DNA from: Brevundimonas goettingensis
GTDB taxonomy: Bacteria; Pseudomonadota; Alphaproteobacteria; Caulobacterales; Caulobacteraceae
Length of the DNA: 64,000 nucleotides
NCBI RefSeq assembly: GCF_017487405.1
Contig: NZ_CP062222.1
Coordinates: 3,729,501-3,793,500, forward strand
Direction: 5' to 3'
Below, in pieces: positions 5,080-57,241 of the stretch. The notes under the pieces were generated by a model. The model did no database searches and was not told where the DNA came from. It saw only the letters and a program-made list of their open reading frames with translations. Position 1 is the stretch's first letter. Every line of letters begins with the position of its first letter. The position numbers and the translations under genes were made by a program.

Positions 5080-5138
5080 GGGTGTGAGCCCTCCGCAGCC
5101 AATATTGTTTCATGCGGCGGTCTCACCGCCTCAGGCCT

Positions 5139-5159
5139 TCTAACAGCGTTGCCGTTAGA
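5139..5159. promoter_or_regulatory. Inverted repeat between divergent ompA and neuB
   Basis: Arms TCTAAC (5139-5144) and GTTAGA (5154-5159) are separated by 9 bases. They sit in the 230-bp divergent promoter region of ompA and neuB. It could be an operator or a leader hairpin; no cognate regulator is visible nearby. Confidence 0.3.
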
Positions 5160-5309
5160 GGTCGAGCCGATATCGCCGGTATATGCCGCGTGCCCGTTCA
5201 ACCGTGACGCTGATGCTACACGGAAAAATAATGCAGTGTTTCGGTGGCTTCGGCGGTTGGAACACCGGCGTCTTCCGGCAGCGACCGAACCGTCCTATGC
5301 ACTGTCGGC

Positions 5310-37244: not shown

Positions 37245-38564
37245 ATGAGCGAGATCGAGGCGACTGCGACGCCGGGTGGAACCCGACCGTCATCCGTGGG
37301 GGCGAGAGCCTGGATCGCCCTGGCGACCCTGTGGTTCATCTATGTGCTGAACTTCCTCGACCGGCAGCTGCTGTCGATTTTGGCCAAGCCGATCCAGGAC
37401 ACCCTGCACGTCACCGACAGCCAGCTCGGTCTGCTCGGTGGGCTCTACTTTGCCTTCTTCTATTGTTTCATCGCCATCCCCGTCGGCTGGCTGGCCGACC
37501 GGACCAACCGGGTGGCGGTGGTCTCCGTCGCCTGCGGCATCTGGAGCGCGGCGACCATGGCCTGCGGCCTGTCGCGCAATTTCGGCGAACTGGCGACGGC
37601 GCGGATGACCGTCGGCTTCGGCGAGGCCGGGGGCGTGCCGCCGTCCTACGCCATCATCACCGACTATTTCCCGTCGGGCAGGCGCGGCATGGCGCTTGGT
37701 CTCTTCAACCTCGGTCCGCCCGTGGGCGCGGCCCTGGGCATCGCCTTCGGGGCGACCATCGCCGCCGTCTTCAGCTGGCGTGACGCCTTCGTCGCCATCG
37801 GGATCGTCGGCCTGATCGTCGCCGTCGCCACCCCCTTCCTGGTCAAGGAGCCGAAACGCGGCGGTCTGGACCAGGTCGAGGGCGCCCCCGCGACCGCGCC
37901 GGCCAAGGCTCCCTTCTGGGCCACGGTGAAAATGTTCTTCTCCCGGCCCGCTTTGGTGCTGGCGGCGCTGGCCAGCGGCATCACCCAGATCATCACCTAC
38001 GGCATGGGCAATTTCTCCGTCCTGTTCCTGATGCGGGAGAAGGGCATGGGGCTGGGCGACGTCGCTGTCTGGTACGCCCTGGTCGTGGCCATCGGCATGA
38101 GCGGCGGCATCTTCGTCTCCGGCTGGCTGCTGGACCGGTTCACGCGCAAGTCGAAGAAGGCCTATGCCCTCCTGCCCGCCATCTCGCTCAGCCTGGCCCT
38201 GCCCTTCTACATCGCCTTCGTCTGGGCCCCCTCCTGGCCGCTGGCCTTGGCCCTGCTCAGCGGCCCGACCTTCCTGAACTACTTCTATCTGTCGTCCTCG
38301 GTGGCCCTGGTGCAGGAGGAGGTGAAGCCCCATCAACGCGTCATGTCCGGTGCTCTTTTGCTGCTGGTGATGAACTTCATCGGCATGGGAGTGGGGCCGA
38401 CCTTCGTGGGCGCGGCCAGCGACTTCTTCCACGCCGCCCACCCTGAGAATTCGCTGCAGATCGCCCTTTACGCCCTCGCGCCCATCTACCTCGTCGCCAT
38501 CGGCCTGTTCCTGTGGCTCGCGAAGGTACTGGGCCGCAAAATCCAATCCAACGGAGACGCCTGA
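37245..38564 (+). CDS. Spinster-type MFS transporter
   Basis: The 439-residue membrane protein has about 12 helices and the spinster-like opening LWFIYVLNFLDRQLLSILAK. The MFS loop GWLADRTNRVAVV and GFGEAGGVPPSYAIITDYFP follow. Relatives occur beside aromatic, bile-acid and ester catabolism genes and move organic acids or lipophilic compounds across the inner membrane. GAGGAAA lies just before the ATG. The stop overlaps the carboxylesterase ATG (TGATG), so the two are co-translated, supporting import of the ester or its product. Confidence 0.88.
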   Translation: MSEIEATATPGGTRPSSVGARAWIALATLWFIYVLNFLDRQLLSILAKPIQDTLHVTDSQLGLLGGLYFAFFYCFIAIPVGWLADRTNRVAVVSVACGIWSAATMACGLSRNFGELATARMTVGFGEAGGVPPSYAIITDYFPSGRRGMALGLFNLGPPVGAALGIAFGATIAAVFSWRDAFVAIGIVGLIVAVATPFLVKEPKRGGLDQVEGAPATAPAKAPFWATVKMFFSRPALVLAALASGITQIITYGMGNFSVLFLMREKGMGLGDVAVWYALVVAIGMSGGIFVSGWLLDRFTRKSKKAYALLPAISLSLALPFYIAFVWAPSWPLALALLSGPTFLNYFYLSSSVALVQEEVKPHQRVMSGALLLLVMNFIGMGVGPTFVGAASDFFHAAHPENSLQIALYALAPIYLVAIGLFLWLAKVLGRKIQSNGDA

Positions 38565-40216
38565 TGTTCGCGCGTAGCCTGCTGACCGCCGCCGTCGCCG
38601 CGGTCGCCTTGCTGACGACCGCCTTCGCGCCGCCCCCTCCTGCCGGGACTTCGGACCGCCCCACGGTCCACGCCTCCGCCGGCGCGGTTCAGGGCCGGGA
38701 GGCCGACGGCATCCAGGCCTTCAAGGGCATCCCGTACGCCGCCCCGCCGGTGGGCCAGAACCGTTGGCGGCCGCCCGCGCCGATCGCGGCCTGGTCGGGC
38801 GTGCGCGACGCCTCCGACTATGGCGCCGCCTGCATCCAGCCCTCGCGCGCGCCGGCCTCGATCTATTCTTCCGATCTGGGCCGCACCAGCGAGGACTGCC
38901 TGACCCTGAACGTCTGGACCCCGGCGACGACCGGCAAGGCGCCGGTCATGGTCTGGATCCACGGCGGCGCCCTGGTCGCCGGGTCGAGCAAGGAGCCCCT
39001 CTATGACGGCGCCGCCCTGGCGAAACAGGGGATCGTCGTCGTCTCGATCAACTATCGGCTCGGCGTCCTCGGCTTCCTCGCCCATCCGGACCTCAGCGCG
39101 GAATCCCCGGTCGGAATCTCGGGCAACTATGGGCTGATGGATCAGGTCGCGGCCCTGACCTGGGTCAAGCGGAACATCGCTTCCTTCGGCGGCGATCCGG
39201 ATCAGGTGACCATCGCGGGTGAATCTGCCGGCGGGCTCAGCGTCATGTATCTGATGGCCTCGCCGATCGCCCGGGGCCTGTTCCAGCGCGCCATCGCCCA
39301 GAGCGCCTATATGATCTCCACGCCCGAGCTGAAGGAGGCCCGCTACGGCGCCCCCTCGGCCGAGACGGCGGGGACCACTCTGGCCCGCGCCCTTCAGGCG
39401 CCCAGCCTGCAGGTGCTGCGTGGGAAGGATGCGCAGGAGCTTACCGACGCCGCGGCCATGTCCGGCTTCTCGCCCTTCGGCGCCGTGGACGGCAAGGTCC
39501 TGACCGGCCAGCTGGTCGATGTCTTCGCGCAGGGGCGCCAGGCGCCCGTTCCGATCCTGGCCGGGTTCAACAGCGGCGAGATCCGCTCGCTGCGGGTCCT
39601 CGCCCCGCCCGCCCCGCGCACCGCCGCCGACTATGAGGCCGTGATCCGCGCCCGCTACGGCGATCTGGCCGACGAATTCCTGCGTCTCTATCCCTCGTCC
39701 GACCTCGGAGAGAGCGTCCTCGCCACCACCCGCGACGCCCTCTACGGCTGGACCTCCGAGCGGCTGGTGCGCGACCAGACGGCGCTGGGCAAGCCGTCCT
39801 TCCTCTATCTGTTCGACCACGGCTATCCGGCGGCGGATCAGGCGAACCTGCACGGCTTCCACGCCTCGGAACTGCCCTTCATGTTCGGCAATATCGACCG
39901 CACCACGCCGCGCTGGCCCGCCATCCCCGACACGGCTGAGGAGCATGCCCTCTCAGCGGCCATGGTCGGCTACTGGGCCTCCTTCGTGAAGACGGGCCGC
40001 CCCGAGGCCCCGGGCGCCGCCGTCTGGGCCCCTTACGGTACGGATGAGGCCTGGATGGCCTTCAAGGCGGCGCCCAAGGCCGGCCGCGACCTCATGCCCG
40101 GCATGTTCGACCTGCATCGCGCCGCCGTCTGCCGCCGCCAGGCCCTGAACCTGGCCTGGAACTGGAACGTCGGGGTGGTGTCGCCGGACCTGTCGGCGGG
40201 GCCGGCCGGCTGCTGA
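38564..40216 (+). CDS. Type-B carboxylesterase, exported
   Basis: The 550-residue alpha/beta hydrolase has a signal peptide (MFARSLLTAAVAAVALL), the oxyanion-hole motif VWIHGGALVAG, the disulfide-type motif SEDCLTLNVW, the nucleophile elbow TIAGESAGGLSVM with the catalytic Ser, the acid in FNSGEIRSL and the His in GFHASELPFMFGN. It hydrolyses carboxylic esters, probably in the periplasm. The chosen ATG 38564 overlaps the transporter stop by one base. The frame is open upstream within the transporter gene but that part is not conserved. A strong bidirectional terminator follows. Confidence 0.9.
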   Translation: MFARSLLTAAVAAVALLTTAFAPPPPAGTSDRPTVHASAGAVQGREADGIQAFKGIPYAAPPVGQNRWRPPAPIAAWSGVRDASDYGAACIQPSRAPASIYSSDLGRTSEDCLTLNVWTPATTGKAPVMVWIHGGALVAGSSKEPLYDGAALAKQGIVVVSINYRLGVLGFLAHPDLSAESPVGISGNYGLMDQVAALTWVKRNIASFGGDPDQVTIAGESAGGLSVMYLMASPIARGLFQRAIAQSAYMISTPELKEARYGAPSAETAGTTLARALQAPSLQVLRGKDAQELTDAAAMSGFSPFGAVDGKVLTGQLVDVFAQGRQAPVPILAGFNSGEIRSLRVLAPPAPRTAADYEAVIRARYGDLADEFLRLYPSSDLGESVLATTRDALYGWTSERLVRDQTALGKPSFLYLFDHGYPAADQANLHGFHASELPFMFGNIDRTTPRWPAIPDTAEEHALSAAMVGYWASFVKTGRPEAPGAAVWAPYGTDEAWMAFKAAPKAGRDLMPGMFDLHRAAVCRRQALNLAWNWNVGVVSPDLSAGPAGC

Positions 40217-44205: not shown

Positions 44206-45162
44206 TCAGGCCGAAGCGACGGCGGCGTCGGCAAGAACGTCGCGCAACATCTGGTCCAGAGTGCGCGTCGGTCGCCAGCCGGTAGTCTCGGAAAGACGCC
44301 GGGCGTCGACGCACGCCATTGGGATGTCGAGGGGCCGCAGGCGCGCGGGGTCCACCACGACCGAGGCCTGGCTGCCGGACAATTCCAGCAGGCGGTCCAG
44401 AAGGTCTGAAATCACCCGCGGAATCCCGGAGGCGATGTTGAAGACCGAACGTTCGGGCAAGGTCGGCGCCGCGGCGATCAGGCTCATATAGGCGTCGATC
44501 GCGTCGTCCACGTGCAGGAAGTCGCGCTTGGCGGACAGGTTGCCGACGTGGATTTCGGCAGCGCCCGCGCGGATCTGCTCGGCGAACGACGGCAGTACGA
44601 AGCGGGGATCCTGGCCGGCGCCCCCCTGGTTGGAGGGGCGGGCGACGATCAGTTTGCAGCTGTCCAGAACGTCGGCGAACATCATCTCCGCCGCCAGCTT
44701 TGAGCGGGCGTAGGCGGTCAGGGGCTCCGGAACGGTGTCCTCTGAAACCGGGAAGTCGCCGAAGGCGCCGCCATAGACTTCCGAGGAGCTGGCGTAGAGC
44801 AGGGTGGCGTCGGGCGTATGGGTCGCCATGGCCCGGGCCAACGCCAGGCTGCCGCCGAAATTGACCGCCCATGTCGTGCCTGCGGTCCTGATCGCCTGTC
44901 CGACCGAGGCCCGTGCAGCCAGGTGGATCACCAGGTCGGGGCGAACCTCGGCGACGGCGGCGGCAACCGAGGCACCGTCCTCCAGGTCGATCTGGATCTC
45001 CGACAGGCCTTGCTGATTCGGCGCCCCCGAATGCCCGGCGGCGACCAGCCGCGATCCGGCCGGCAGGGCATCGCGCAGCCGTCGGCTGAGCCGACGGCCG
45101 ACGAAGCCGGTGCTGCCCGTGATCATGACCACGGCGGGAGCCGGATTGACCTCAGAAAACAA
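44206..45162 (-). CDS. rmd: GDP-4-dehydro-6-deoxy-mannose reductase-like SDR (Rmd)
   Basis: An extended SDR with MITGSTGFVGRRLS, VIHLAARASVGQA, YASSSEVYGGAFG, AYARSKLAAEM with the catalytic Tyr-Lys, and NLSAKRDFLHVDDAIDAY. The last is the hallmark of GDP-mannose-derived reductases. It lies 48 bases downstream of gmd and probably reduces the 4-keto sugar to GDP-D-rhamnose. GDP-fucose synthase is less likely, as it usually has a different active-site pattern. The start is uncertain: TTG 45162 with GGGA about 9 bases upstream is chosen (318 residues); GTG 45132, ATG 45126 and TTG 45192 are possible. Confidence 0.82.
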   Translation of the reverse strand: MFSEVNPAPAVVMITGSTGFVGRRLSRRLRDALPAGSRLVAAGHSGAPNQQGLSEIQIDLEDGASVAAAVAEVRPDLVIHLAARASVGQAIRTAGTTWAVNFGGSLALARAMATHTPDATLLYASSSEVYGGAFGDFPVSEDTVPEPLTAYARSKLAAEMMFADVLDSCKLIVARPSNQGGAGQDPRFVLPSFAEQIRAGAAEIHVGNLSAKRDFLHVDDAIDAYMSLIAAAPTLPERSVFNIASGIPRVISDLLDRLLELSGSQASVVVDPARLRPLDIPMACVDARRLSETTGWRPTRTLDQMLRDVLADAAVASA

Positions 45163-45210
45163 GACTTCGGTTCCCTGGAATTCGCGACGCAACGGGGTAC
45201 GGGACAGGGA

Positions 45211-46200
<990 letters not shown>

Positions 46201-46261: not shown

Positions 46262-46594
46262 TCAGGACTGCGCCGTCGCCAGGAATTTGTCATTCGGCGC
46301 GGACGGCGCCTTGACCACCACGGTGACGCAGTCGGTCAGTGCGAGGAAGTCGGTTGTCTCACCCGGTTCGATCGTCAGGATGTCCCCCGCCGACCAATCC
46401 TTGCCTAGCATACGCACCGATCCGCTGACGATGGCCGTTATCTCGGTGGCTACCCTATGAAAATGCGCAGCTTCGTGGTCGCCAGCCCTATAATGTTTAA
46501 TGGCGACTTCGCAATCCGTAGATCGCAACACATGCGGGTCGAAATCGCCCACGAACCAACCTTTGGTCATTCCTTCGAGGCGGTCATGACGCAT
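46262..46594 (-). CDS. Cupin-domain protein
   Basis: The 110-residue protein has one cupin barrel: CEVAIKHYRAGDHEAAHFHRVATEITAIVSGSVRML for the first motif with two histidines and a glutamate, then GDILTIEPGETTDFLAL for the second motif. Small cupins in polysaccharide loci often are sugar or sugar-acid isomerases or binding proteins. The reaction here is unknown. Its ATG overlaps the upstream nucleotidyltransferase gene by 11 bases, with GAGGAAG as the ribosome-binding site. It is the last gene of the five-gene cassette, and its base composition is slightly less GC-rich than its neighbours. Confidence 0.8.
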   Translation of the reverse strand: MRHDRLEGMTKGWFVGDFDPHVLRSTDCEVAIKHYRAGDHEAAHFHRVATEITAIVSGSVRMLGKDWSAGDILTIEPGETTDFLALTDCVTVVVKAPSAPNDKFLATAQS

Positions 46595-47330
46595 GGCGCT
46601 TCCTCTCGTCGATCTGATAGTCGAGGCTGAGCACCTGACGTTGGTCCTTCAGCGGGTGATAGAGCTGCGGGTCGATGGCGGTAACCGCGATCCGCTTGTT
46701 CCGGAGCACCATCTCGTTCAGCGAGGGGCTGATGTAGAAGACGCCGTTCAGGTGCGCGTCCTTCAGTATCATCCGCTGGACGCTGTCGATGAAGTCGCGC
46801 GCGCGGGCGTACCAGTAGAAGCCTGCGTTGGCCTGCCGGCTGATGGGGCGCTTTTCCGCCGCCTCCAGCACCCAGCCGTCGGCGTCGGTGGTGACGAACG
46901 AATAGCGCGGATGCAGGGAATCGAAGGTCAGGATGCCGGCGTCGGCCTGTCGCGTCCGGAAGCCGGCGACCACGGCGTCGTAGTCGACCTCGATATGATC
47001 CGTCGCGCTGACAATGATCAGTTCTTCGTCCAGGTTGATATGGCTGATCGCCAGCAGGGCCGTGCAGGCGGCGCCGGCCGTGCGCCGGCGCACCTCGACC
47101 ACGGCCGCGTCGGAGGCGAGCTGGCGGGCGATATCGTCGACGTGCTGGGCGTCGATGTCGGCCCCGCGGAAGGCGAAGATGAATTTCGACCCTTCCTGAA
47201 GTCGCAGGGCATTGACCTGCCGCTCCAGCAGGAGCTTGCCGTCGATCTCCGAGAGCCAGATCGGATAGCCGGCCGGCGCATCCGGAGCCGTCGTGTCACC
47301 GCCGCCGGCGGCCAGGATCAGGATGTTCAT
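46584..47330 (-). CDS. Nucleotidyltransferase-like (GT-A fold) protein 2 of the cassette
   Basis: The 248-residue protein starts MNILILAAGGGDTTAPDAP, a nucleotidyltransferase opening that lacks the usual GxGxRL loop but keeps the AAGG. PIWLSEIDGKLLLERQVNAL, IIVSATDHIEVDYDAVV (the N/D-x-D-like metal site), GILTFDSLHPRYSFV and NAGFYWYARARDFI follow. This resembles the second nucleotidyltransferase that accompanies HAD phosphatases in capsule loci. It may bind rather than turn over a nucleotide sugar. It overlaps the HAD gene by 4 bases. Confidence 0.75.
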   Translation of the reverse strand: MNILILAAGGGDTTAPDAPAGYPIWLSEIDGKLLLERQVNALRLQEGSKFIFAFRGADIDAQHVDDIARQLASDAAVVEVRRRTAGAACTALLAISHINLDEELIIVSATDHIEVDYDAVVAGFRTRQADAGILTFDSLHPRYSFVTTDADGWVLEAAEKRPISRQANAGFYWYARARDFIDSVQRMILKDAHLNGVFYISPSLNEMVLRNKRIAVTAIDPQLYHPLKDQRQVLSLDYQIDERKRHAS

Positions 47331-47956
47331 GCGCCCCGCTCCTCGATCTCGAGAATGCGGGCGTCGATATTGGCCAGGTTGACGTCTTCCACGCCCCTGA
47401 CCACCAGGACGTGGGCGCCAGAGGCCCGGGCGGCCCGAATGCCGTGGTCATTGTCCTCGACGATCAGCGTTTCTTCCGGCGCCACGCCCAGCCGCTCCAT
47501 GGCCAGGGTGTAGATATCGGGTTCGGGCTTGGGCCTGGCGACATCCTCATTGGACAGCATCAGCTTCAGATAGGCATCCAGCCCGGACTTGCGCATCATG
47601 GTCTCCACGCTGTTGCGCACGGAGTTGGAGGCCACCGCCAGCTTCAGACCGCGCCGCGACAGTGTGGAAAGGGCGTATTCGTGGATAAAGGTGGGTTTGC
47701 ACAGCGCGTGCACGATCTCCATCGTGTAGTTCTGCTTCAGCTCGTTGACGAAGCTGTGCAGTTCCAGCGGAAACCGTTCCGTGATGGTCAGCAACTCAAG
47801 TTTGCGACGAGTCGGAAGGCCATCGAAGGTCGTCAGATGGTCCGCCAGGCTGATCTCGAGGCCGAACAGCCGCAGGGCGCGGTTCAGGGCCTCGTAGTGC
47901 CAATCCTTGGCGTCGATCAGGACGCCGTCCATGTCGAAGACGACAGCCTTGATCAT
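47327..47956 (-). CDS. HAD-family phosphatase of the cassette
   Basis: The 209-residue protein has HAD motif I VFDMDGVLIDAKDWHYEALN near residue 7, motif II ASNSVRNS, motif III around KPEPDIYTLA and motif IV IVEDNDHGIRAARASG. A four-helix cap (LADHLTTFDGLPTRRKLE) lies between motifs I and II, as in beta-phosphoglucomutase-like phosphatases. It probably removes phosphate from a sugar or polyol phosphate in the cassette's pathway. It overlaps both neighbours by 4 bases. Confidence 0.85.
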   Translation of the reverse strand: MIKAVVFDMDGVLIDAKDWHYEALNRALRLFGLEISLADHLTTFDGLPTRRKLELLTITERFPLELHSFVNELKQNYTMEIVHALCKPTFIHEYALSTLSRRGLKLAVASNSVRNSVETMMRKSGLDAYLKLMLSNEDVARPKPEPDIYTLAMERLGVAPEETLIVEDNDHGIRAARASGAHVLVVRGVEDVNLANIDARILEIEERGA

Positions 47957-48567
47957 GCGAAATGGCTCCGGGCGAGGTCGGGCCGGTCGGTACAGAGCAT
48001 GAGTTGTCCTTCAGTGTCCGAAAAGCCCTTGAGTAGCGGCCACAGGGTGTCCGGATCGCGGCCATGCAGTTCGGGCGAAACGACGCAGACCCGTTTCCCG
48101 GCGGCCAGATGCGTTTCGATCACCGACCGGTCGAACCAGATAGGGCCGAACGAATCCAGCCACACGCCCGCCGCCTGATCGTAAAGGATCGGGGTGGTCT
48201 CGATATCGCTGTGCCGGGTCAGGAAGGGCAGGCTGGCCGTCGCATACCGCAGAGTTTCCGGCCCCGACATGTCGAAGGCGAACCAGTCGATGTCGCGACC
48301 CGCGAAGGCGCGGGCCAGAGCGTCCGACAGGCCGTCGGACTTGACGTTCACCGCCAGGGGCAGGCCCTTGCCCTCGAACAGGTCCAGCACCTCTGACCAG
48401 GGCTGCGCGCCTGTAAGCGCGGGATCGTGCGACACGACCAGATCGCCGACCAGGTCGCGCACATCGGTTTCGGTCCCGAAGGCCTCCGCAACGGTGCGTT
48501 CGAAGGCGACGGGCCGGTTCTTTTCGTCAGGCGTGCGCCAGAAGCCCCGATGGCTCAGGATGATCAT
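47953..48567 (-). CDS. GDPD-like phosphodiesterase, short form
   Basis: The 204-residue protein starts MIILSHRGFWRTPDEKNRPV and keeps the glycerophosphodiester phosphodiesterase signatures: His-Arg at residues 6-7, the acidic ETDVRD, and VVSHDPALTG with the second catalytic His. It is shorter than usual (about 250 residues) and has no signal peptide, so it acts in the cytoplasm. Genes of this form between a nucleotidyltransferase and a HAD phosphatase suggest it processes a phosphodiester intermediate, not lipid head groups. It overlaps both neighbours by 4 bases. Confidence 0.78.
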   Translation of the reverse strand: MIILSHRGFWRTPDEKNRPVAFERTVAEAFGTETDVRDLVGDLVVSHDPALTGAQPWSEVLDLFEGKGLPLAVNVKSDGLSDALARAFAGRDIDWFAFDMSGPETLRYATASLPFLTRHSDIETTPILYDQAAGVWLDSFGPIWFDRSVIETHLAAGKRVCVVSPELHGRDPDTLWPLLKGFSDTEGQLMLCTDRPDLARSHFA

Positions 48568-49316
48568 GCGGTGGCTCGCAAGGGCGCCGAGACATCAAGC
48601 GAGAGGAACAGTTCCAGATCGGCGGGCGTGCCGAGGCCGTACATGCCCTCGGCCTCGGCGCCGATGTTGTAGGTCGCGACCTGCTGCCCCTCGGCGATCA
48701 GCTCGTTGTAGACTGGCGCCACGTAGAACTCGCCGTTGACGCGACGATCCGCCGCGATCATCTCGTCCGCCGCACGGACGAAATCAGCGCCCGAGCCGAA
48801 ATTATAGATGCCGACGGTGGCCTCGTTGGAGATGACCTCCTTTTCGACGACGCGGGTGACGCGGCCGGCCTCGTCGAGGCCGACGAACGACCATTTCGGA
48901 TCGTCGGCGCGCATGGTCATGATCAGTCCGTCGACCCCGTCCTGGGCCGCCAGATAGTTGTCGATGGGGATGTCGACGTACTGATCGCTGTTTGCGATCA
49001 TGATCGGATCAGCGTCGATCAGGTCCCGGGCCTTGAGGACGGTGCAGGCCGCGCCCTCGGTCACGCCGTCGATCTCGATGATCTCGCAGCCCGGCGCCCA
49101 GGCCTGGAGGCGCTCGCGCAGCCCGTAAGCGGCGACGTGTTCGGCCTGGCAGATGAAGATGAACCGGTGCGGTCGCGACGGCGTCAGGTTGTCGATGACG
49201 ACCTTGATCATCGGCGATTCACCGACCGGGATCAGCGGCTTGGGATCCTGGTAGCCGACAGCGCTGAAGCGGCTGCCGCGTCCCGCCATCGGTATGATGA
49301 TCGATAGAAGGCTCAT
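48564..49316 (-). CDS. Nucleotidyltransferase 1 of the cassette (sugar-phosphate NTP transferase family)
   Basis: The 250-residue protein has the full nucleotidyltransferase opening IIIPMAGRGSRFSAVGYQDPK, PLIPVGESPMIKVVIDNL, GAACTVLKARDLI, the metal site IANSDQYVDI, WSFVGLDEAGRVTRVVEK, and NGEFYVAPVYNELI. It closely resembles the small dTDP-glucose-pyrophosphorylase-like enzymes in capsule loci. It starts a tight five-gene operon. I choose ATG 49316; the frame remains open far upstream, but that part has no conserved sequence. The nucleotide and phosphate substrate are unknown. Confidence 0.85.
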   Translation of the reverse strand: MSLLSIIIPMAGRGSRFSAVGYQDPKPLIPVGESPMIKVVIDNLTPSRPHRFIFICQAEHVAAYGLRERLQAWAPGCEIIEIDGVTEGAACTVLKARDLIDADPIMIANSDQYVDIPIDNYLAAQDGVDGLIMTMRADDPKWSFVGLDEAGRVTRVVEKEVISNEATVGIYNFGSGADFVRAADEMIAADRRVNGEFYVAPVYNELIAEGQQVATYNIGAEAEGMYGLGTPADLELFLSLDVSAPLRATA

Positions 49317-49526: not shown

Positions 49527-50330
49527 GTGTCCAAACCGCCTGTCGTCGCCATCGTCTGTCGAGGTCCGTTGAGGACTCCGATGGAACATCTTGCCCGCCG
49601 GATCGATAATCTTCGTGGTGAATTCACCGCCGCCGGGGTCGAGACGCGGGTCTTTCTTGCGACCTGGAACCAGCCATTCAACGGCGTTGACGAGATCGTT
49701 TTTGGCGACCGGTTCGACGACGTCATGATGATTCAGCCTCCCACTGAGGAGGAGGTGGTGGAGATGATCGGCCTGACGACCCTGGCCGACGACCGCTTCG
49801 GGGTGCGCAACACCTTCTACCAGTATTTCCTGGCGCGGCTGGCGCTGAACGCCGTCAATCTGACCGGGGACTACGACTTCATCGTCCACACCCGGTCCGA
49901 CCTGAACATCGCCCTCGGCCCGTTCTTGCCGGAATGGCTCGCGCGCCCTGATCTCTATACGACCATCCATTGTCGCGAGGACGGCCAGGCCTTCATCAAC
50001 GACCAGTTTTCCGTGGCGGGGCCGAAGGTCATGCTCGATGCCTGGACCTACCGGTCGTTGGAGGATCTGCGGGAGCTGTTCTCCACCGCGGTCATTCCCG
50101 AGGACATCCTCCAGTCCATGCTGACCCGATCGGGGATCACGGCGCGCCAGATCCAGATCACCCAGTGGGAACTGGATCCCGTGCGCGGGTCGCCCTACGA
50201 GCCGGCGCCGGCGCCGGCCCCGCCCGAACCTGAACTCGTCCCCGTGGAATCGGTCGCCGCCTTCGAGCCGGTCGCCGCGCCGGAAAGCCAACCAGAGAAT
50301 GCGCCGGTGACGGCGATCGATGCGGTCTGA
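49527..50330 (+). CDS. WavE-like putative glycosyltransferase
   Basis: I do not recognise this firmly. The 267-residue protein has VVAIVCRGPLRTPMEHLA, FLATWNQPFNGVDEIVFGD, FGVRNTFYQYFLARLALN, YDFIVHTRSDLNIALGPFLP and FINDQFSVAGPKVML. The order WxQ-D...N-x-x-x-Q-x...Y-x-x-x-x-x-R-S-D resembles WavE-family lipopolysaccharide synthesis proteins, in which the R-x-D region is the sugar-nucleotide metal site. The last 50 residues are Pro/Ala/Glu-rich and look disordered. Start is GTG 49527 with GAGAG upstream. It lies alone on the plus strand between the minus-strand cassette and the WcbI-like gene. Confidence 0.6.
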   Translation: MSKPPVVAIVCRGPLRTPMEHLARRIDNLRGEFTAAGVETRVFLATWNQPFNGVDEIVFGDRFDDVMMIQPPTEEEVVEMIGLTTLADDRFGVRNTFYQYFLARLALNAVNLTGDYDFIVHTRSDLNIALGPFLPEWLARPDLYTTIHCREDGQAFINDQFSVAGPKVMLDAWTYRSLEDLRELFSTAVIPEDILQSMLTRSGITARQIQITQWELDPVRGSPYEPAPAPAPPEPELVPVESVAAFEPVAAPESQPENAPVTAIDAV

Positions 50331-50344
50331 GCCGCGGCTCCCGC

Positions 50345-51583
50345 CTATTTGTTCACGAGCGACAGAAGAGTCTTCCTGGCCCGTTTCCAACCAGCGGGCC
50401 TGGGCTGAGGCGTCTGCGGCGTCGCGTCGGGACGGCGCGGGCGTTCTGGCGCAGCGATCACTGGAGGGGCGTCGACTTCCAGGCCAGTGCGGGCGCGGAA
50501 GCCTTCGACGCCGCCGGTCTGGGCGAACTCGGCCGAGTTGACGAAGACGGCGATGACCACCTCAGGTCCATGCCGACGCAGGGTCTGGAGATGGTGGAAG
50601 ACCTCGTCGGAGCTGGGCGAGCGGTTGTTGAACACCTTGTAGAGGGCCTCGATGAGGGGCCGCTCGTCATGGGTGACTTCCACCGCCCGGGCCCGGCGAT
50701 AGCGGTCGAGATAGGCGTTGATTTCCAGGTCCACCGCCACGCCCGTCGCGACGGCTTCGGGGCCGAGCGACTTGTAGATCGCGAAGACCTCGCGGAAGAA
50801 ATCGCGCCGGGTCTCGATCCGTCCATCGACCCGGACCTCGTCCAGCCAGACCCCCGCGCCGGTATGGCCCAACGCCAGGAGGGTCGACAGATAGGGGGGC
50901 ATGACGAATCCGTCGAGCATGTCGACGCCTTCCAGCCGGGCGCGCTCGGGCCGTTCCAGCTTGTCGAGCGCCTGATCCGCCAGCTCGCACATCACCGAAC
51001 GAGTGGGATGGTTCACCGTGTGCAGAGGCTGTTCCGTGGTCAGCCGCCCCGCGATGATCTCGGAGACGCGCAGGTCAGTCGCGGCGGCGTGCTCGCGACG
51101 CATCAGCTCTAGCGTGGTCTGGGACAGTTCGGCATGAACCAGTCCGGCGGGCAGAAAATCGGACGTGCTGGTGTCGTCCACGAATTGGTCCGCCTCCTTG
51201 CCGCGCAGGAAATAGTCCAGGGCGTGGGCGTCGTGATAGGCCAGCCGGCCGTTGTGCCAGGCTGTCATCGCGAAACACTGCGGCAGCTGACCCCGGTGAT
51301 AGACGACGGGGAAGGTCAGGATCTTGGCGTCTGAACGGGCATTGGCCCTGATCCATTGGGTCGAAAGAATCTCGGTGCCGCGGTAGTTCTCACCAACGGG
51401 CTGGGCCAGGATGACGTCCGCGGTAGCGACGTCGCGGCGATAGTCCTCGACCTCGGCATCCAGGTCGATGCTGAACACCTGACGCGTCACCACCTCGACC
51501 GAAGGACCGCAGGCTTCGGCCAGCAGGTCGCCGAGCGTGGGCGCCTGACAGTTGCCGTGCACGTAGATTTTCAAGCTCTTCAT
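50345..51583 (-). CDS. WcbI-family polysaccharide biosynthesis protein with DUF4214-like C-terminal helices
   Basis: The 412-residue protein opens with KIYVHGNCQAPTLGDLLAE, the WcbI family signature GNCQ. VILAQPVGENYRGTEIL, FPVVYHRGQLPQCF and SQTTLELMRREHAAATDLRVS follow, the last resembling the WcbI helical region. WcbI is needed for capsule synthesis in Burkholderia, where an acetyltransferase-like role has been proposed. Residues about 300-350 (LIEALYKVFNNRSPSSDEVF...VFVNSAEFA) resemble one DUF4214 repeat, and the tail is Pro/Arg-rich. It faces the 49527 gene, 14 bases apart. Confidence 0.75.
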   Translation of the reverse strand: MKSLKIYVHGNCQAPTLGDLLAEACGPSVEVVTRQVFSIDLDAEVEDYRRDVATADVILAQPVGENYRGTEILSTQWIRANARSDAKILTFPVVYHRGQLPQCFAMTAWHNGRLAYHDAHALDYFLRGKEADQFVDDTSTSDFLPAGLVHAELSQTTLELMRREHAAATDLRVSEIIAGRLTTEQPLHTVNHPTRSVMCELADQALDKLERPERARLEGVDMLDGFVMPPYLSTLLALGHTGAGVWLDEVRVDGRIETRRDFFREVFAIYKSLGPEAVATGVAVDLEINAYLDRYRRARAVEVTHDERPLIEALYKVFNNRSPSSDEVFHHLQTLRRHGPEVVIAVFVNSAEFAQTGGVEGFRARTGLEVDAPPVIAAPERPRRPDATPQTPQPRPAGWKRARKTLLSLVNK

Positions 51584-51672: not shown

Positions 51673-52851
51673 TCAGAACGGCAGCTGGTCGCGGGATGCG
51701 AGGCTGTCGATCAGGGCGGCCTTCAGCGCCGGGCCGGAAAGGGTGGATCGCGAACCGTTCAGAACGCCCGAAATCCGGTCGGCCATGGCGGCGTGGTCCG
51801 AGGGACCCACGCATAGATCAGGGTTCAGATTGATCTCGGGACAGGAGGAGACGTTGGACGAGATCACCGGCACCCCGTGGTTCTGGGCCTCCAGGATGGG
51901 CAAGCCCAAGCCCTCGTAGAAGGAGGGAAACACCAAGGCGTCGGCCTCGGCGTAGAGACGCGCCAGACAGTCGTCGGACGCCTGGCGGAACCAGCGCACC
52001 CGGTGCCCTGAGGCCGCCAGGGCGTCGAAGAAGCGGGCGACCTGTTTCAACGGCACGCGCTCGCGGCCGACGACATCGATGTCAAAGCCTTCGCCCGTCT
52101 GCGCGGCCCGCTCCAGACTGGCGCGGGCGCCGCTGAAATTCTTGCGGATATCCAGAACATTCACCAGCAACAGGCGTTTGCGTTCGCCCGCGCGGCCGAT
52201 GTCGACCTTCACCCGGGCGCCGGGGTCGGGAATGAAGGGAATGACGGAGCGCACCTTGTCGCCCTCCGCCCCTTCCAGCCGATAGAAGGCGACGAAGTCG
52301 CGAGCACTGCTCTGACTGACGCAGAGAATTCGGGTGGCGTTGCGAATATAGGCCCGATAGCCGAGGTCGTGATCATGGGCGAAGGCGTAGATGTCCATCA
52401 CCGCCCCCAGGTTCAGGGCGCCGCAGGCGACGAGATTGGGCACCATGTCGTGAACGATGCCGATGGTGAAGGCGACATCGGGCATGCCCTGGCGGCACAG
52501 CCAGGGATCGGTCAGGACCGAGATCTCGAAATCCTCGATCCGGACGGCGTTCCGGGTCCAGCGGAAGACCCTGGGGGCGCGCGGCGCGGCGAACCGGTCC
52601 GGGAGGGGCAGGCCGGAAGCGGACGTCCAGTCCGGGGCGTCGTCCCGGCGATCGCCGACCATGGCCAGGGTCTGGTCCAGCGACAGGGCGGGGCCGCGCA
52701 GGATTCGCCCGTCTTCGGGCGTGCCGAGGGTGACGGAATAGCCGGCCCGCTGCAGCTGACGCCAATAGTGGAAGGTGACCCGGCGCACACCGACATGTTC
52801 GGTCAGGAAGTCGCGGTCGACGATCAGGATGGCGGTCTTCGACATCGTCAT
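51673..52851 (-). CDS. GT4-family glycosyltransferase
   Basis: The 392-residue GT-B protein has VGVRRVTFHYWRQLQ at its N-terminus, IGIVHDMVPNLVACG, ILCVSQSSARDFVAFY, LLLVNVLDIRKNFSGARASL and the donor-binding FPSFYEGLGLPILEAQNHGVPVISSNVSSCPE. This places it in GT4 with mannosyl and rhamnosyl transferases. The ATG at 52851 overlaps the upstream gene's stop (ATGA); this coupling decides the start over the longer frame. It probably extends the capsule or surface polysaccharide. The linkage is unknown. Confidence 0.87.
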   Translation of the reverse strand: MTMSKTAILIVDRDFLTEHVGVRRVTFHYWRQLQRAGYSVTLGTPEDGRILRGPALSLDQTLAMVGDRRDDAPDWTSASGLPLPDRFAAPRAPRVFRWTRNAVRIEDFEISVLTDPWLCRQGMPDVAFTIGIVHDMVPNLVACGALNLGAVMDIYAFAHDHDLGYRAYIRNATRILCVSQSSARDFVAFYRLEGAEGDKVRSVIPFIPDPGARVKVDIGRAGERKRLLLVNVLDIRKNFSGARASLERAAQTGEGFDIDVVGRERVPLKQVARFFDALAASGHRVRWFRQASDDCLARLYAEADALVFPSFYEGLGLPILEAQNHGVPVISSNVSSCPEINLNPDLCVGPSDHAAMADRISGVLNGSRSTLSGPALKAALIDSLASRDQLPF

Positions 52852-55052
52852 CGACCCTCCACGAGGGCGCACTTCACCAGGCCGACGCCCAGAAGCCGGT
52901 CGTCGATCCCACCGGGTTGGGCGGCGTGAGAGATCAGCCGCTTGGAGCGGAAGGTCAGGCGGATTTCACGGCTGTCGAGCCGGCGCGGCAAGGCGACGCG
53001 GACCTCGCGGCGCGAGCGCAGCGGCGACAGGGTCCAGCGGCCCAGCTCCTTGTCGCCGAAATGGATGCTGACCACCTGCTCGGGCAGGGCGGGCCCGGCC
53101 ACAGTCTGGATCGTCGACACGAATTTGAGACGCCGCCGGGGCGGTTCGGCCAGGTGGAAGATCAGTTCAGCGGAACGGTCCGCCGCCCAGACGCCCCAGC
53201 TCTCCTGCGGCCGCCAGCCGCGTCCCATGACCAGCTTGCCGGCGCCGTCCGAGGCGAAGACGATTTCCTTGCCCGGGCGATAGGCGAAATCGTCGTGTCG
53301 GCGGCTGACCCGCACCGACGTCAGGGTCACGGGGGACAGCGGCGTCAGCGGCCCGACGGGCGGCCGCACCAGCCAGACATGGAAAAGATGGCTCTCGGTG
53401 GCGTCGAGGTGGGGCAGGCGGACCTGAAGCGTCCGGTCGTCGACGACCTCGAACGGGCGATCCATCGCATTGACCCGAATCCCAAGAAGTCCCGCCAGAT
53501 CACCTGCCGTGGCGAAGCTAATGCGCAGGGAGACATCGTCGTCCAGCACCGGCAGGCGGAAGCTGAACACCGGCGCCTCAGCCCCTGACCACCTGAGGCC
53601 CGGGCCGGTCGGCCGCCAATCCCGGGGCAGGATCAGGCCTTGGGCGACGAAGGCCGAGGGGGATTTCGCTCCGGTGAGGTCGAGTTCGGCCTCCATCTCG
53701 ATGGGCGCGTTTCCCGCCACCCTGCGCGGCGCCTCGGCCAGGGCCAGGCCCATGGGGCCGATGGGCGTCTCGCCGCCCCAGTCGGGGGCCTCGGTCTGAG
53801 CATAGGCGTCTTCCAGCCAGGGCAGGCGTTCGAAACCCTCGATGAAGCCCTTGCGCGGCGGCTCGCTGGTCAGCAGCAACGAACGGCAGGGACGGGCGAC
53901 GATCCCGGCCCTGTCCAGGCGTCGTGACAGATCGACGTCCTCCGCCTGGCCCCAGAGCAGCAGTTCGCTCCAACGGATCGCGGCCAGCAGGCGGGTCTTG
54001 GCGATGATCACGCCGCCGTTCACATAGGCGAACGGGTGATAGTCGCCGAACTCCATCCAGCCAGGCGTGGTCCAGTTCAGATCGTCGGACAGCATGACCC
54101 AATCGGGCAGGCCGAACCCTTCGGTGGTCACCTGATGCGGCACGACGACGCCGAAATCGCCGCCGAAATCGGCCATGCGCAGCAGGAAGTCGTCCGGGAC
54201 CGAATAGCGGTCGTGGGCGATCAGGACGTTCTCGCGGGTCGCCTTTGCGACCAGGGCGTTCTTCTTGTGAGTGATCCAGCCGACGCTGGCGAAGCGGTCG
54301 GACTGGGGCACATGCACGATGCGTTTGGCCAACGGCCCCAGGTCGGACAGGATCGAATCCGGGCCGCAGATCAGGATCTCGCTCGATGCCCCCCCGTGAT
54401 GATCCGCCCTCAGTACACTGCGAATGAAGGTCTTCACCGCTTCGGGGCGGCGCCCGTCGGTAATGATCGCGAAGGAGAAGTCGGCCGCCGACGCCGGGCG
54501 GGGCGCGCCGTGACCCAGCCGCAGGCTGATCACGAACTGCAGGTCGGACAGCGTCTGGTCGATGAGTTCGTAGGCGCCGCCGGTCCAGCGTTCGATGAAA
54601 TTGGCGAACTGGAACACGCTGAGGAAGGCGGACTGCCGGGCCCGCACGACCAGAACGCCGCCAGGCCGCAGCGCGCGCAACGCCTCGTCGAGGACCAGAG
54701 GCCATTGCTTGATCTGACCCAGATCCCGCTCGACCAGATAGGCGATATCGAAGGCCTGATGCGAGCCAGGCGGCAGGCGAAAGTCCTGGTGCGGATCGAA
54801 CAGGGCGCTGCCGTCGACCATGTCCGCGCGCGGCGGCAGCGAACCGGCCCACAGGACGTCACCCGAAAGGCCGGCCAGAATCTCAGGAACGATAGGCTGC
54901 AAGTCGGCCGTCTCCGAAGCCGTCTCGACGGCGACCCTGTCCTGAGGAACCGGGACTGAATGGTCAAGTGCGGCTGTGCGGCGCGCGGCTCGCGAAGCCG
55001 GTCGGGGAAGAGCGTGCCCCCACTTCACCGCATTGACCTGCGCGGACGGCAT
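52848..55052 (-). CDS. Large multidomain glycosyltransferase with degenerate methyltransferase-like N-terminus
   Basis: The 734-residue protein appears to have three parts. Residues about 60-175 look like the second half of a SAM methyltransferase (DIAYLVERDLGQIKQW, VLDEALRALRPGGVLVVRAR) but lack the glycine-rich SAM loop. Residues about 190-430 form a GT-A domain: IITDGRRPEAVKTFIRSVL, NALVAKATRENVLIAHDRY with a D-x-x-like metal site, MEFGDYHPFAYVNGGVIIAK, WGQAEDVDLSRRLDRAG. Residues about 450-730 are predicted beta-sandwiches (VFSFRLPVLDDDVSLRISF, LRSRREVRVALPRRLDSREI). It is divergent from the gene at 55111 and coupled to the GT4 gene downstream. Acceptor and donor are unknown. Confidence 0.75.
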   Translation of the reverse strand: MPSAQVNAVKWGHALPRPASRAARRTAALDHSVPVPQDRVAVETASETADLQPIVPEILAGLSGDVLWAGSLPPRADMVDGSALFDPHQDFRLPPGSHQAFDIAYLVERDLGQIKQWPLVLDEALRALRPGGVLVVRARQSAFLSVFQFANFIERWTGGAYELIDQTLSDLQFVISLRLGHGAPRPASAADFSFAIITDGRRPEAVKTFIRSVLRADHHGGASSEILICGPDSILSDLGPLAKRIVHVPQSDRFASVGWITHKKNALVAKATRENVLIAHDRYSVPDDFLLRMADFGGDFGVVVPHQVTTEGFGLPDWVMLSDDLNWTTPGWMEFGDYHPFAYVNGGVIIAKTRLLAAIRWSELLLWGQAEDVDLSRRLDRAGIVARPCRSLLLTSEPPRKGFIEGFERLPWLEDAYAQTEAPDWGGETPIGPMGLALAEAPRRVAGNAPIEMEAELDLTGAKSPSAFVAQGLILPRDWRPTGPGLRWSGAEAPVFSFRLPVLDDDVSLRISFATAGDLAGLLGIRVNAMDRPFEVVDDRTLQVRLPHLDATESHLFHVWLVRPPVGPLTPLSPVTLTSVRVSRRHDDFAYRPGKEIVFASDGAGKLVMGRGWRPQESWGVWAADRSAELIFHLAEPPRRRLKFVSTIQTVAGPALPEQVVSIHFGDKELGRWTLSPLRSRREVRVALPRRLDSREIRLTFRSKRLISHAAQPGGIDDRLLGVGLVKCALVEGR

Positions 55053-55110: not shown

Positions 55111-56055
55111 GTGGCTGAGAGCATGAAACGGCGGTTCGCCCGCGTCACCCGTCCGCTCCGCGAAGATTTTTCCATGAAGGGGTTCGCTCGCATGACGCGG
55201 CCCTGGCGGATGAAGCGCCAGGAGCGGAGGGCCGCCGCCGCCCTGAGCGCCAGCCGACCGGCGACTCCCATCCCTTCCCATATCGACCATGCCCGACTGA
55301 CCTCGCTGGAGGGGCGGGTCGAGCGGCTGCAGGCCGGCTGGAACCAGCACCTTCCTGGTCTTCTGAACAGCGTCACCCTGGCGGTGAGCGAGGCGCGGAG
55401 CGCCGACCGCGTACATGCGCGCATTGACGCTCTGCGTGAGGATATGGACCGGCTGACCGCGAGGCTCGACCTGGGCCTGCTCGACCTCAAGGCCCGCATG
55501 GACCAGTTCACGCCGTCCGGTCCTGACGAGGGTGGAGCGCGGATCCTGTCGATGGGCGCAGTCGCCGAGGCCCTGGCCGGGGAGTTGACCTTGCAGTTCG
55601 TCGCAGGGGACGCGCCGAAGCCCGGCACGATCGTCGTCGCTCGCGCAGCGGCGCCGGGCGTCGATGTGGTGTCTCCTGACGCGGATCTGTCCTTTGGGCA
55701 GGGGCGGGTCAAGGAGATCGTCGTCGAGGCGGGCTATCCCCTCGGCGCTGACGAGGCCGCGACGCGGGCCCTGATGGCGCAATGGTTCAACCTTCTCGAC
55801 GCCGGTGGTCGGCTTACGCTTCACCGTTTCGATGTGCTGGACATGGTCGGCGCCTTGTCGAACGGGAGTCTGACCTTGGACGACGCGCGCGCTCGACTGT
55901 CGGCGGCGCCCCTGCAGGCCTCGCCCGCCGGCCTGTCCGCAGAGTCCCTGAAGACCGCCGCCGCCGCCGCCGGATTGCGCGAGGTGCGGATCACCCGCGG
56001 CAAGGCCAGCCTTGGCTTCACGGTCCAGGGCCGGCGGCCCGCGGCGAAGTCCTGA
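55111..56055 (+). CDS. Coiled-coil protein with methyltransferase-like C-terminal fold, unknown function
   Basis: I do not recognise a named family. The 314-residue protein has a basic N-terminus (about 40 residues, rich in Arg and Lys), a coiled-coil-like region at residues about 60-130 (LTSLEGRVERLQAGW; ALREDMDRLTARLDLGL), and a C-terminal part. EIVVEAGYPLGADEAATRALM, FNLLDAGGRLTLHRFDVLDM and AAAAGLREVRIT in that part look like the late strands of a SAM methyltransferase without the SAM-binding loop. The same degenerate fold appears in the divergent 734-residue gene. Start: GTG 55111 chosen; ATG 55123 is possible. The stop lies 4 bases before the GT4 gene. Confidence 0.6.
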   Translation: MAESMKRRFARVTRPLREDFSMKGFARMTRPWRMKRQERRAAAALSASRPATPIPSHIDHARLTSLEGRVERLQAGWNQHLPGLLNSVTLAVSEARSADRVHARIDALREDMDRLTARLDLGLLDLKARMDQFTPSGPDEGGARILSMGAVAEALAGELTLQFVAGDAPKPGTIVVARAAAPGVDVVSPDADLSFGQGRVKEIVVEAGYPLGADEAATRALMAQWFNLLDAGGRLTLHRFDVLDMVGALSNGSLTLDDARARLSAAPLQASPAGLSAESLKTAAAAAGLREVRITRGKASLGFTVQGRRPAAKS

Positions 56056-56059
56056 GCGG

Positions 56060-57241
56060 ATGGGCGCGGCGGATCGACCCCTTCAGGTCGTCGTCGTCTG
56101 CCCGTGGTTTTTCCGGGGTGACGCCGTCGGCGCGGCGGCGCGCGAGACCTACGCCCAGCTCGCGGCCCGGCCGGATATGCGAGTCACGGGCCTGTGGACC
56201 GCGAACGACTACGACGAGGTGAAGGGCCGCAAGGTCGAGACCCTGGCCGACCTTCTGCTGGACCCCGACTTTCTGCGCGCCGATGTGATCGTCTACGTCT
56301 TCGCCGTCTACCATCCGTTCTTCGATGCGGTCCTGCTGGGCAACGGCCATGCGAAACAAGTCGTTCGTTTTCACAACGTCACCCCCAAACGGCTGATGCC
56401 CGAGAAGCACTGGCCGGTGATCGAGAAGTCGTTCGTCCAGATCCAGGCCTTCTCCGGCGCCGATGCCCTCTGGGCCGACAGTCGCGAGAACGCCGAGGAA
56501 CTGGCGCGCAACGGCCAGGGCGGGGCCCGGGTCTCGGTGGTCCCCCTCGGGGTCGAATTCCCGGCTCGCGCGCGTCTGGCTGACAAGCCGCGCGCCCGGA
56601 TCGAACTGCTCTATGTCGGCCGGTTCTTCCAGTCCAAGGGCGTACACGAGTTGATCCAGGCGGCGGACCGGCTGCGGCGAATTTCGACGACGCCCTTCGT
56701 GCTGCGGCTGGTCGGCAATCTGCGCTTTTCCGACCCGGACTATGTCGAAGGGCTTCACGCGCTGCTGCGTGAGCTGGATTTGGGCGACAGCATCGATTTC
56801 GTCGGCGCCGTATCTGACGCCGAAATGGCCGCCGCCTACCGCCGCGCCCATGTGCTGGTCACCGGTTCGCGCCACGAGGGCTTTTGCGTCCCGGTGATCG
56901 AGGGGCTGGCCGCCGGCTGCGTGCCCGTCAGCTATGCGATCAGCAACCTCCGCTATATCGCAGACGGGCTCGGCGTCCTGGCTCTGGACGATACGCCCGA
57001 GGCTCTGGCGGAGGCGTTGAAAGGCGTGATCGACGCCCTGGGCGCGGACGGGGCGCGGCGGCTGTGGCTGGATCGCGGGTCGATGTCTGTCGAGGCATTC
57101 GACCTCGCCGGATCGGCCTATGTCGAGGGTTTCACCCGCGAGCGCTTCGGCGAGCGGATCGCCGGGCGGGTCCGCGATCTGGCCAACCCGCCCCCGTCGC
57201 CCGGGACAGACGCCTGGTACGGCGGCCTCCCCCTCGAGTGA
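56060..57241 (+). CDS. GT4-family glycosyltransferase
   Basis: The 393-residue protein shows VVVVCPWFFRGDAVGAAARETYAQL, VRFHNVTPKRLMPEKHW, ALWADSRENAEELARNG, VVPLGVEF, ELLYVGRFFQSKGVHELIQAA and the donor site VTGSRHEGFCVPVIEGLAAGCVPVSY. This is the GT4 glycosyltransferase order. The ATG at 56060 lies 4 bases after the stop of the coiled-coil gene, so they form a two-gene operon. The tail is Pro-rich. It faces the 298-residue unknown gene at 57249, 7 bases apart. Confidence 0.87.
   Translation: MGAADRPLQVVVVCPWFFRGDAVGAAARETYAQLAARPDMRVTGLWTANDYDEVKGRKVETLADLLLDPDFLRADVIVYVFAVYHPFFDAVLLGNGHAKQVVRFHNVTPKRLMPEKHWPVIEKSFVQIQAFSGADALWADSRENAEELARNGQGGARVSVVPLGVEFPARARLADKPRARIELLYVGRFFQSKGVHELIQAADRLRRISTTPFVLRLVGNLRFSDPDYVEGLHALLRELDLGDSIDFVGAVSDAEMAAAYRRAHVLVTGSRHEGFCVPVIEGLAAGCVPVSYAISNLRYIADGLGVLALDDTPEALAEALKGVIDALGADGARRLWLDRGSMSVEAFDLAGSAYVEGFTRERFGERIAGRVRDLANPPPSPGTDAWYGGLPLE

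Follow-up and report, generated by a model that had tools for sequence, protein, structure and literature searches.

Among proteins derived from glycerophosphodiester phosphodiesterases (GDPDs), AvrBs2 is described as converting UDP-galactose to a cyclic sugar phosphodiester and UMP, as lying near agrocinopine synthase (ACS) in the published tree, and as having in common with it a clade-specific motif, R544 and D547 within the GDE domain (PMC12807533). Here we consider a GDPD-like protein from another setting: a cassette of five minus-strand genes (positions 46262–49316) in a 64,000-nucleotide stretch of Brevundimonas goettingensis contig NZ_CP062222.1, the whole of which is termed the window. 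The cassette recurs as a set across phyla, and the reading that we favour, with our confidence evenly poised, is that its genes form one pathway to a nucleotide-activated surface-glycan unit, with the GDPD-like enzyme in line. The five genes are the following, in order of transcription:

48564–49316, minus strand: NT1, a nucleotidyltransferase of the sugar-1-phosphate type with its motifs intact (PF00483 46.5 bits; nearest solved structure 4evw, E 1.2e-16)
47953–48567, minus strand: GDPD-like protein of 204 amino acids, from an unnamed N-x-K subfamily of the TIM-barrel phosphodiesterase family (conserved residues; profile match to GDPD structures)
47327–47956, minus strand: HAD enzyme, either phosphatase or mutase, of the beta-phosphoglucomutase/YqaB type (PF13419 116.6 bits; catalytic residues)
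46584–47330, minus strand: NT2, a degenerate paralogue of NT1 without the glycine loop (4evw, E 3.1e-8; no Pfam match)
46262–46594, minus strand: small cupin-like protein with an HxH...E motif (motif; cyanophage homologue at 42% identity)

The overlaps along this chain are 4, 4, 4 (ATGA) and 11 bases, and all five open reading frames (ORFs) lie where an earlier annotation made from the letters alone (the sequence-only reading) had placed five minus-strand genes overlapping by 4–11 bases. The longest NT1 ORF begins upstream, with TTG at 50390; the start was taken as the ATG at 49316 because homologue lengths agree with it and the divergent gene at 49527–50330 then stays free. Plus-strand ORFs that overlap the five genes were regarded as shadow ORFs. 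The fraction of guanine plus cytosine is 0.636 at 45–48 kb against 0.648–0.702 elsewhere, a dip too slight to carry an argument.

Set beside the described systems, the cassette may be seen as a pathway of the nucleotide-sugar type that includes an unexplained phosphodiesterase-like step. AvrBs2 resembles the window protein in being GDPD-derived, and its use of a UDP-sugar is paralleled by the position of the window protein beside a presumed maker of a nucleoside diphosphate (NDP) sugar; in contrast, AvrBs2 acts as a secreted effector and ACS is encoded by a T-DNA gene. Relative to the GDPDs proper (PF03009; 1o1z, 3no3, 2pz0), the window protein retains the N-terminal HRG...ExD...HD signature but has N-x-K for E-x-K, lies inside a nucleotidyltransferase cassette, and matches neither any Pfam family at E <= 10 (PF03009 included) nor any NCBIfam family. 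Similarly, NT1 carries the motifs of the sugar-1-phosphate nucleotidyltransferases (PF00483; 4evw, RmlA, GlmU, HddC) but is paired with a degenerate paralogue and scores under all NCBIfam cut-offs, whereas the cassette HAD shares the catalytic residues and H20 of the beta-phosphoglucomutase/YqaB enzymes (1lvh, 3kbb) and falls under the named-family cut-offs. Heptose-type activation employs an isomerase, a kinase, a HAD phosphatase and a nucleotidyltransferase; the cassette parallels it in the HAD and nucleotidyltransferase and departs from it in having no isomerase or kinase and in its additional GDPD-like protein, NT2 and cupin. In cyanophage S-SM2, genes annotated as phosphoheptose isomerase stand beside a GDPD-like gene. 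The pneumococcal CDP-2-glycerol pathway likewise combines a nucleotidyltransferase and a HAD enzyme for an unusual unit and, to our knowledge, includes no GDPD, NT2 or cupin. No named pathway for the gene set was found in the open-licence literature among the matches listed (subscription papers lay outside the scope), in agreement with the sequence-only reading, which knew of none.

The cassette was followed through 29 loci, namely the matches of an alignment of 24 GDPD-like relatives against a one-genome-per-species set, such that the presence of the GDPD-like bait in 29/29 is by design. Families were counted by resolved profile assignment with cross-hits between the nucleotidyltransferase profiles removed, and the table of locus architectures covers the loci other than L001, L002 and L042–L054. 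A HAD gene stands beside the GDPD-like gene in all 29—in L012 and L028 a few genes away in the same cluster—and the full set of five families occurs in 21, from Proteobacteria, Actinobacteria and Verrucomicrobia. Seventeen of these complete loci, including those of Methylobacterium, Ensifer, Gluconacetobacter, Paraburkholderia, Pseudomonas and Cellulomonas, have the order NT1-GDPD-HAD-NT2-cupin, and four (L017, L025, L026, L027) the order GDPD-HAD-NT2-cupin-NT1, with the NT1 gene of L027 lying 5.5 kb away. Three of the eight incomplete loci stop at a contig edge (L006, L015, L019), among them a metagenome-assembled genome (MAG) of Butyrivibrio (L019) with GDPD and HAD only before the edge; in that of Acetobacter pomorum (L023) NT2 is weak (46 bits) and the cupin is missing, and L028 is rearranged, with an NT2 remnant of 18 bits.

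Gene fusions provide a second line of evidence. HAD and NT1 form a single protein in the cyanophages S-CAM9, S-PRM1, B23 and DSL-LC03; an NT2'-NT1 protein occurs on Sinorhizobium, Rhizobium and Azospirillum plasmids and in three MAGs (L012, L024, L029); and the NT2 remnant is joined to the cupin in one MAG (L028). The fusions thereby string HAD, NT1, NT2 and cupin together.

Across 385 alphaproteobacterial genomes, a GDPD-like match at E <= 1e-60 is found in five (G000, G010, G047, G148, G299), and NT1 at >= 50% identity in exactly the same five, on the same contig and within 2 kb of the GDPD-like gene, a coincidence of about 1.5e-11 if the two sets were independent and the genomes unrelated. 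The weaker sets, 21 genomes in all with GDPD matches at E <= 0.001 (of which several are short and N-terminal) and 10 in all with NT1 matches at E <= 1e-20, coincide incompletely, as NT1 stands in G130 (46%) and G069 with no accompanying GDPD match. The cassette is probably accessory, because the two other genomes of the genus among the 385 have neither a GDPD-like match (E <= 0.001) nor an NT1 match (E <= 1e-20); the window genome is a single contig of 3.98 Mb, and Brevundimonas and Phenylobacterium are among the named protein relatives. Because the same set recurs across phyla, its recurrence exceeds chance, and the earlier proposal that the five genes form one unit holds far past close relatives, which excludes one of the two outcomes that the sequence-only reading had named as refuting it, co-occurrence confined to near kin. 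The set is widespread and tightly conserved, and lies for the most part in the surface-glycan loci of bacteria from the environment or associated with plants; it is also found on clinical Pseudomonas plasmids and, in a reduced form, in cyanophages.

Two further occurrences may be recorded here. A contig filed as viral (L085; IMG/VR UViG_2675903395_000004) carries the full five-gene cassette at 4554–7637, next to apparent RmlD/RmlC-like and ABC-exporter genes; two WavE-like matches are detected there by our own profile only (37 and 51 bits) and none by Pfam, and it is probably a bacterial polysaccharide locus, not a phage. On Rhizobium plasmids (L070, L072), the arrangement GDPD-HAD-[NT2'-NT1]-NT3 lies outside annotated polysaccharide loci, in the 20.6 kb shown.

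The GDPD-like protein has 2664 relatives at E <= 0.001, and none of 120 among the matches listed carries a Pfam domain. Its placement as a short GDPD-like phosphodiesterase, already made from the letters alone, is borne out by a profile of 37 relatives that matches the solved GDPD 1o1z (E 2.8e-6, best stretch 2–52). The group is marked by the motifs HRG, ExDxRD, HD and NxK, with the HR/ExD/H catalytic residues invariant in the 37-row alignment. In the wider residue counts, which for this protein, the HAD and the cupin cover the loci other than L001, L032–L054 and low scorers (L002 being the window), the catalytic set is kept at H6 (44/46), E33 (45/46), D35 (44/46) and H47 (45/46), with numbers shifted by 2 to match the window protein. 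N74-x-K76 is found in 46/46 copies, at the position of the E-x-K that we take to be the third metal position of canonical GDPDs, and the acidic third metal residue is absent. A distant GDPD-like group, which lies near a two-domain nucleotidyltransferase, belongs to the same family: its profile aligns with that of the window group over 188 columns, near full length, at E 1.7e-26.

In phages the family takes a shorter form. The phage collection searched with the window GDPD-like protein gave no match at E <= 1, and the short type was found only via the neighbouring NT1. A 150-residue GDPD-like protein is present in 16 phage records, amounting to 10 distinct Synechococcus phages; all 16 belong to the 20 records in which an NT1 relative occurs. 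Its gene lies at 10043–10501 in L055/L056, 6711–7163 in L079 and 4516–4977 in L084, the same cyanophage loci that carry the HAD-NT1 fusion. Among the records opened, the product is annotated as hypothetical except in DSL-LC03, and the start annotated in S-CAM9 and S-PRM1 lies too far downstream to include the conserved N-terminus.

NT1 displays the loop MAGRGSRF followed by PKPL, ANSDQ, EK and GTPADL, and its only Pfam matches are PF00483 (cut-off 21.2) and PF12804, upholding its earlier naming as a nucleotidyltransferase. Motifs were tabulated for 93 nucleotidyltransferase domains, covering domains of at least 100 bits and 180 residues from loci other than L001, L002, L006 and L033–L054. Among the 53 rows labelled NT1, the GxGxRF/L loop is present in 48 and the PK lysine in all; the five loop-less rows comprise three that are NT2-like (L068_11255, L070_1, L072_1), the other two (L061, L062) being first domains from the distant group. 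The 33 NT2 domains, on the other hand, never have the loop, have lost the PK lysine in 22 cases (kept in 11/33), retain EK in 32, and show the second Asp of TPxD once (L027); loop, lysine and second Asp are all lost from the window NT2, which aligns with NT1 at 28% over residues 38–218. By its sequence, NT2 is a paralogue of NT1 that lost the nucleotide loop. It had been read as a second nucleotidyltransferase-like protein lacking the glycine loop: the missing loop stands, but a second nucleotidyltransferase step is probably not its function, because in addition to the loop the PK lysine is gone in 22/33. NT2 is strongly conserved and therefore retains a job, most likely, given its lost motifs and its fusions, as a partner of NT1 or a substrate-binding subunit.

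The HAD matches HAD_2 (PF13419) at E 1.7e-33 and TIGR02009 at 110.2 bits (cut-off 153.35), and its catalytic set D8, D10, S110, K143, E167 and D168 (DxD, S/T, K, ED) is present in 43/43 aligned copies. It had been called a phosphatase; the HAD assignment holds, and as to phosphatase or mutase the sequence scores to both kinds, with the phosphatase TM_1254 best. H20 and K74 as proof of a mutase were dropped: K74 is not clearly aligned on what we take to be the position of the beta-phosphoglucomutase lysine, and H20 is present in phosphatases as well. The window cupin-like protein has no Pfam cupin match at E <= 10, and the earlier cupin call is sustained by its HxHx4E metal motif (H44, H46, E51 in 30/30 aligned copies) and by the homologue from the cyanophage Bellamy, which matches Cupin_2 at E 8e-5 (22.7 bits, under the cut-off of 27.2).

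The surroundings of the cassette, on both sides, include:

45211–46197, minus strand: GDP-mannose 4,6-dehydratase, next downstream and outside the conserved five (TIGR01472 427.5 bits, cut-off 415)
44206–45192, minus strand: SDR-family sugar-nucleotide epimerase/reductase-like protein, downstream (PF01370 150.3 bits)
49527–50330, plus strand: divergent gene of 267 amino acids, tentatively a WavE/cyanophage 'GQPR'-type transferase (weak partial profile matches)
50345–51583, minus strand: WcbI polysaccharide-biosynthesis protein (PF18588 123.5 bits)
38486–39946, 52848–55052, 56018–56875, 57249–58145, 58816–59979 and 61105–63810, minus strand: large ORFs without a Pfam match (E <= 0.001)

Past the dehydratase and the SDR enzyme, on the same strand, follows a protein with a Glycos_transf_1 domain, and upstream of the cassette lie the divergent gene, WcbI, a further glycosyltransferase and ABC-exporter genes. 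Because these genes adjoin the cassette, the locus has the look of one for a surface polysaccharide, of the ABC-exporter type. The profile of the divergent 267-residue protein, which has five relatives in all with itself counted, meets the cyanophage 'GQPR' profile at 82.7% probability over 65 columns and WavE weakly (39.6%), and its assignment as a transferase is tentative. A homologue (38%) directly follows the cupin gene in L016 (L016:7240–7896), and a glycosyltransferase-like protein of about 590 amino acids occupies that place in L014, L020, L028 and L057.

Taken as one pathway, the five genes would yield a single activated building block, NDP-X, for the surface polysaccharide of this locus. 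The HAD would prepare X-1-phosphate, either as a mutase or as a bisphosphate phosphatase; NT1, a competent nucleotidyltransferase by its family, would presumably turn this into NDP-X, with NT2 as its putative partner or substrate-binding subunit; the cupin may aid isomerisation or binding; the GDPD-like protein, as a metal-dependent phosphodiester enzyme, would act in line on NDP-X or its product; and WavE-type and related GT-A-like proteins, to judge from the neighbourhood, would add the unit to the glycan. In the version that we prefer, the GDPD-like enzyme would take NDP-X, free a nucleoside monophosphate (NMP) and form a phosphodiester of X, as published for AvrBs2. Such a sugar-phosphodiester synthetase, argued by analogy, is a tentative proposal on the unlikely side, and the rest of the in-line reading has the enzyme in line but cleaving. 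Equally unlikely in our estimate, the protein might be the founding member of a class of envelope enzymes that produce a cytoplasmic sugar phosphodiester from NDP-X with release of NMP, handled by NT2 and the cupin and transferred by WavE-type proteins; if true, this would add a new kind to the activated building blocks of glycans, one common to several phyla and, reduced, to cyanophages. Solving the pathway would give a product to many proteins labelled hypothetical, 'phosphodiesterase' or 'glycosyltransferase family 2'; it would also show whether enzymes of the GDPD fold act as biosynthetic synthetases in bacterial envelopes.

The activated building block of the sequence-only reading is supported in part: a competent nucleotidyltransferase, the HAD and the WavE and glycosyltransferase neighbours fit it. 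WavE (PF07507) is above the Pfam cut-off in 12 of the 29 loci (L014, L017–L022, L025–L029) and is detected by our own iterated profile in 13, the extra one (L031) being just under the Pfam cut-off (25.8 against 27), relative to a background of 3/372 alphaproteobacterial genomes, the cassette being present in two of the three (G047, G148); this background draw is not exactly the set of 385 used for GDPD and NT1.

Several observations weigh against the one-pathway reading. The WavE comparison is itself rough, as the 29 loci span several phyla and the background is alphaproteobacterial only; 17/29 loci have no WavE over the cut-off within the stretch examined, and the window genome has none. The likeness to AvrBs2 and ACS is drawn from the published description and not from sequence. 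The activity of the GDPD-like protein may be altered or lost, because the ExK metal motif lacks its usual E. Cyanophages pair the HAD-NT1 protein with a much shorter GDPD-like protein that aligns over 57 N-terminal columns only; an NT1 relative occurs without a close GDPD in 4/20 phage records and in a Legionella plasmid locus; and L012, L024 and L029 combine the NT2'-NT1 fusion with a third nucleotidyltransferase-like protein (NT3) and no cupin. Finally, the cassette could be linked to no polysaccharide of known structure.

The best-surviving rival, a possibility of some weight if still a doubtful one, keeps the NDP-X pathway and makes the GDPD-like protein a side hydrolase that frees a sugar- or polyol-phosphate from a diester for use in the pathway or removes incorrect products, the final unit being a plain NDP-sugar. 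The retention of the canonical HR, ExD and H residues suits this role, as does the fact that the solved relatives are glycerophosphodiester phosphodiesterases, after which some sources name the family, and the HAD-NT1 fusions suggest a core devoted simply to activation; however, no source of a diester substrate is recognised within the locus, the GDPD-like protein is repeatedly paired with nucleotidyltransferase domains, and its third metal residue is N in every copy.

A ketose or pentose-derived sugar as the unit is quite improbable. The isomerase, kinase and aldolase that would serve it are missing from the window-type cassette, and what speaks for it comes from related modules: in Bellamy an NT1-like protein joined with an RpiB/LacAB isomerase, a PfkB-like kinase and a class II aldolase, and around the distant GDPD group a phosphoribulokinase-like kinase, a ribulose bisphosphate (RuBP)-5-phosphatase-like HAD and a class II aldolase. 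Even there the NCBIfam scores fall under their cut-offs (205.5 of 236; 168.2 of 330), as does PfkB (23 of 25.8), and the distant-group HAD is of a different subfamily.

Very improbable, mainly because of the family of NT1, is a glycerol-phosphate pathway, in which the GDPD would give glycerol-3-phosphate, as GDPDs normally do, NT1 would make CDP-glycerol, and the polysaccharide would carry glycerol phosphate. NT1 is of the PF00483 sugar type and not a TagD-type cytidylyltransferase (a family assignment of TagD that we assume); moreover, glycerol-3-phosphate is already made centrally, two sets of ten window proteins scanned contained no CDP-glycerol glycerophosphotransferase, and the HAD step would be left without explanation. 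Polysaccharide loci do swap genes freely and four of the 21 complete loci differ in gene order, but coupling conserved across phyla and three kinds of fusion make it barely credible that the five genes are merely co-located in a hypervariable locus and serve several pathways.

Some related modules in phages and plasmids complete the picture. The Bellamy glycan cluster (L078, 4788–8215 and 10926–12306) codes for a KdsC-like HAD, a weakly PfkB-like protein, a nucleotidyltransferase fused to an RpiB/LacAB isomerase domain, the cupin homologue (42%), a GQPR-type protein, a class II aldolase and a GDPD-like protein. A minimal set of nucleotidyltransferase, HAD and WavE without GDPD is seen on a Legionella sainthelensi plasmid (L081, 4684–8839), where an APH/Bud32-like gene, an EcbF/BcbF-type HAD (under cut-off), an NT1-like gene and two WavE-annotated genes stand in a row. 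Fructose occurs in the Vibrio cholerae core, Haemophilus influenzae e' and Escherichia coli K4; activation of fructose by a set of nucleotidyltransferase, EcbF-type HAD and WavE was considered and set aside, as no paper found in the open literature supports it.

A second locus type is represented by an E. coli plasmid (L080; NZ_CP145712.1), an Azospirillum brasilense plasmid (L082) and L059–L063. Its content varies between loci and includes a two-domain nucleotidyltransferase, GtrA (or not), a GT2 glycosyltransferase, a GDPD-like protein, a phosphoribulokinase-like kinase fused to a membrane protein, a HAD whose best score is to RuBP-5-phosphatase (under cut-off), and a class II aldolase. It possibly makes a pentulose-derived unit, and its GDPD gene is present in 2 of 5,426 E. 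coli genomes, both times on plasmids.

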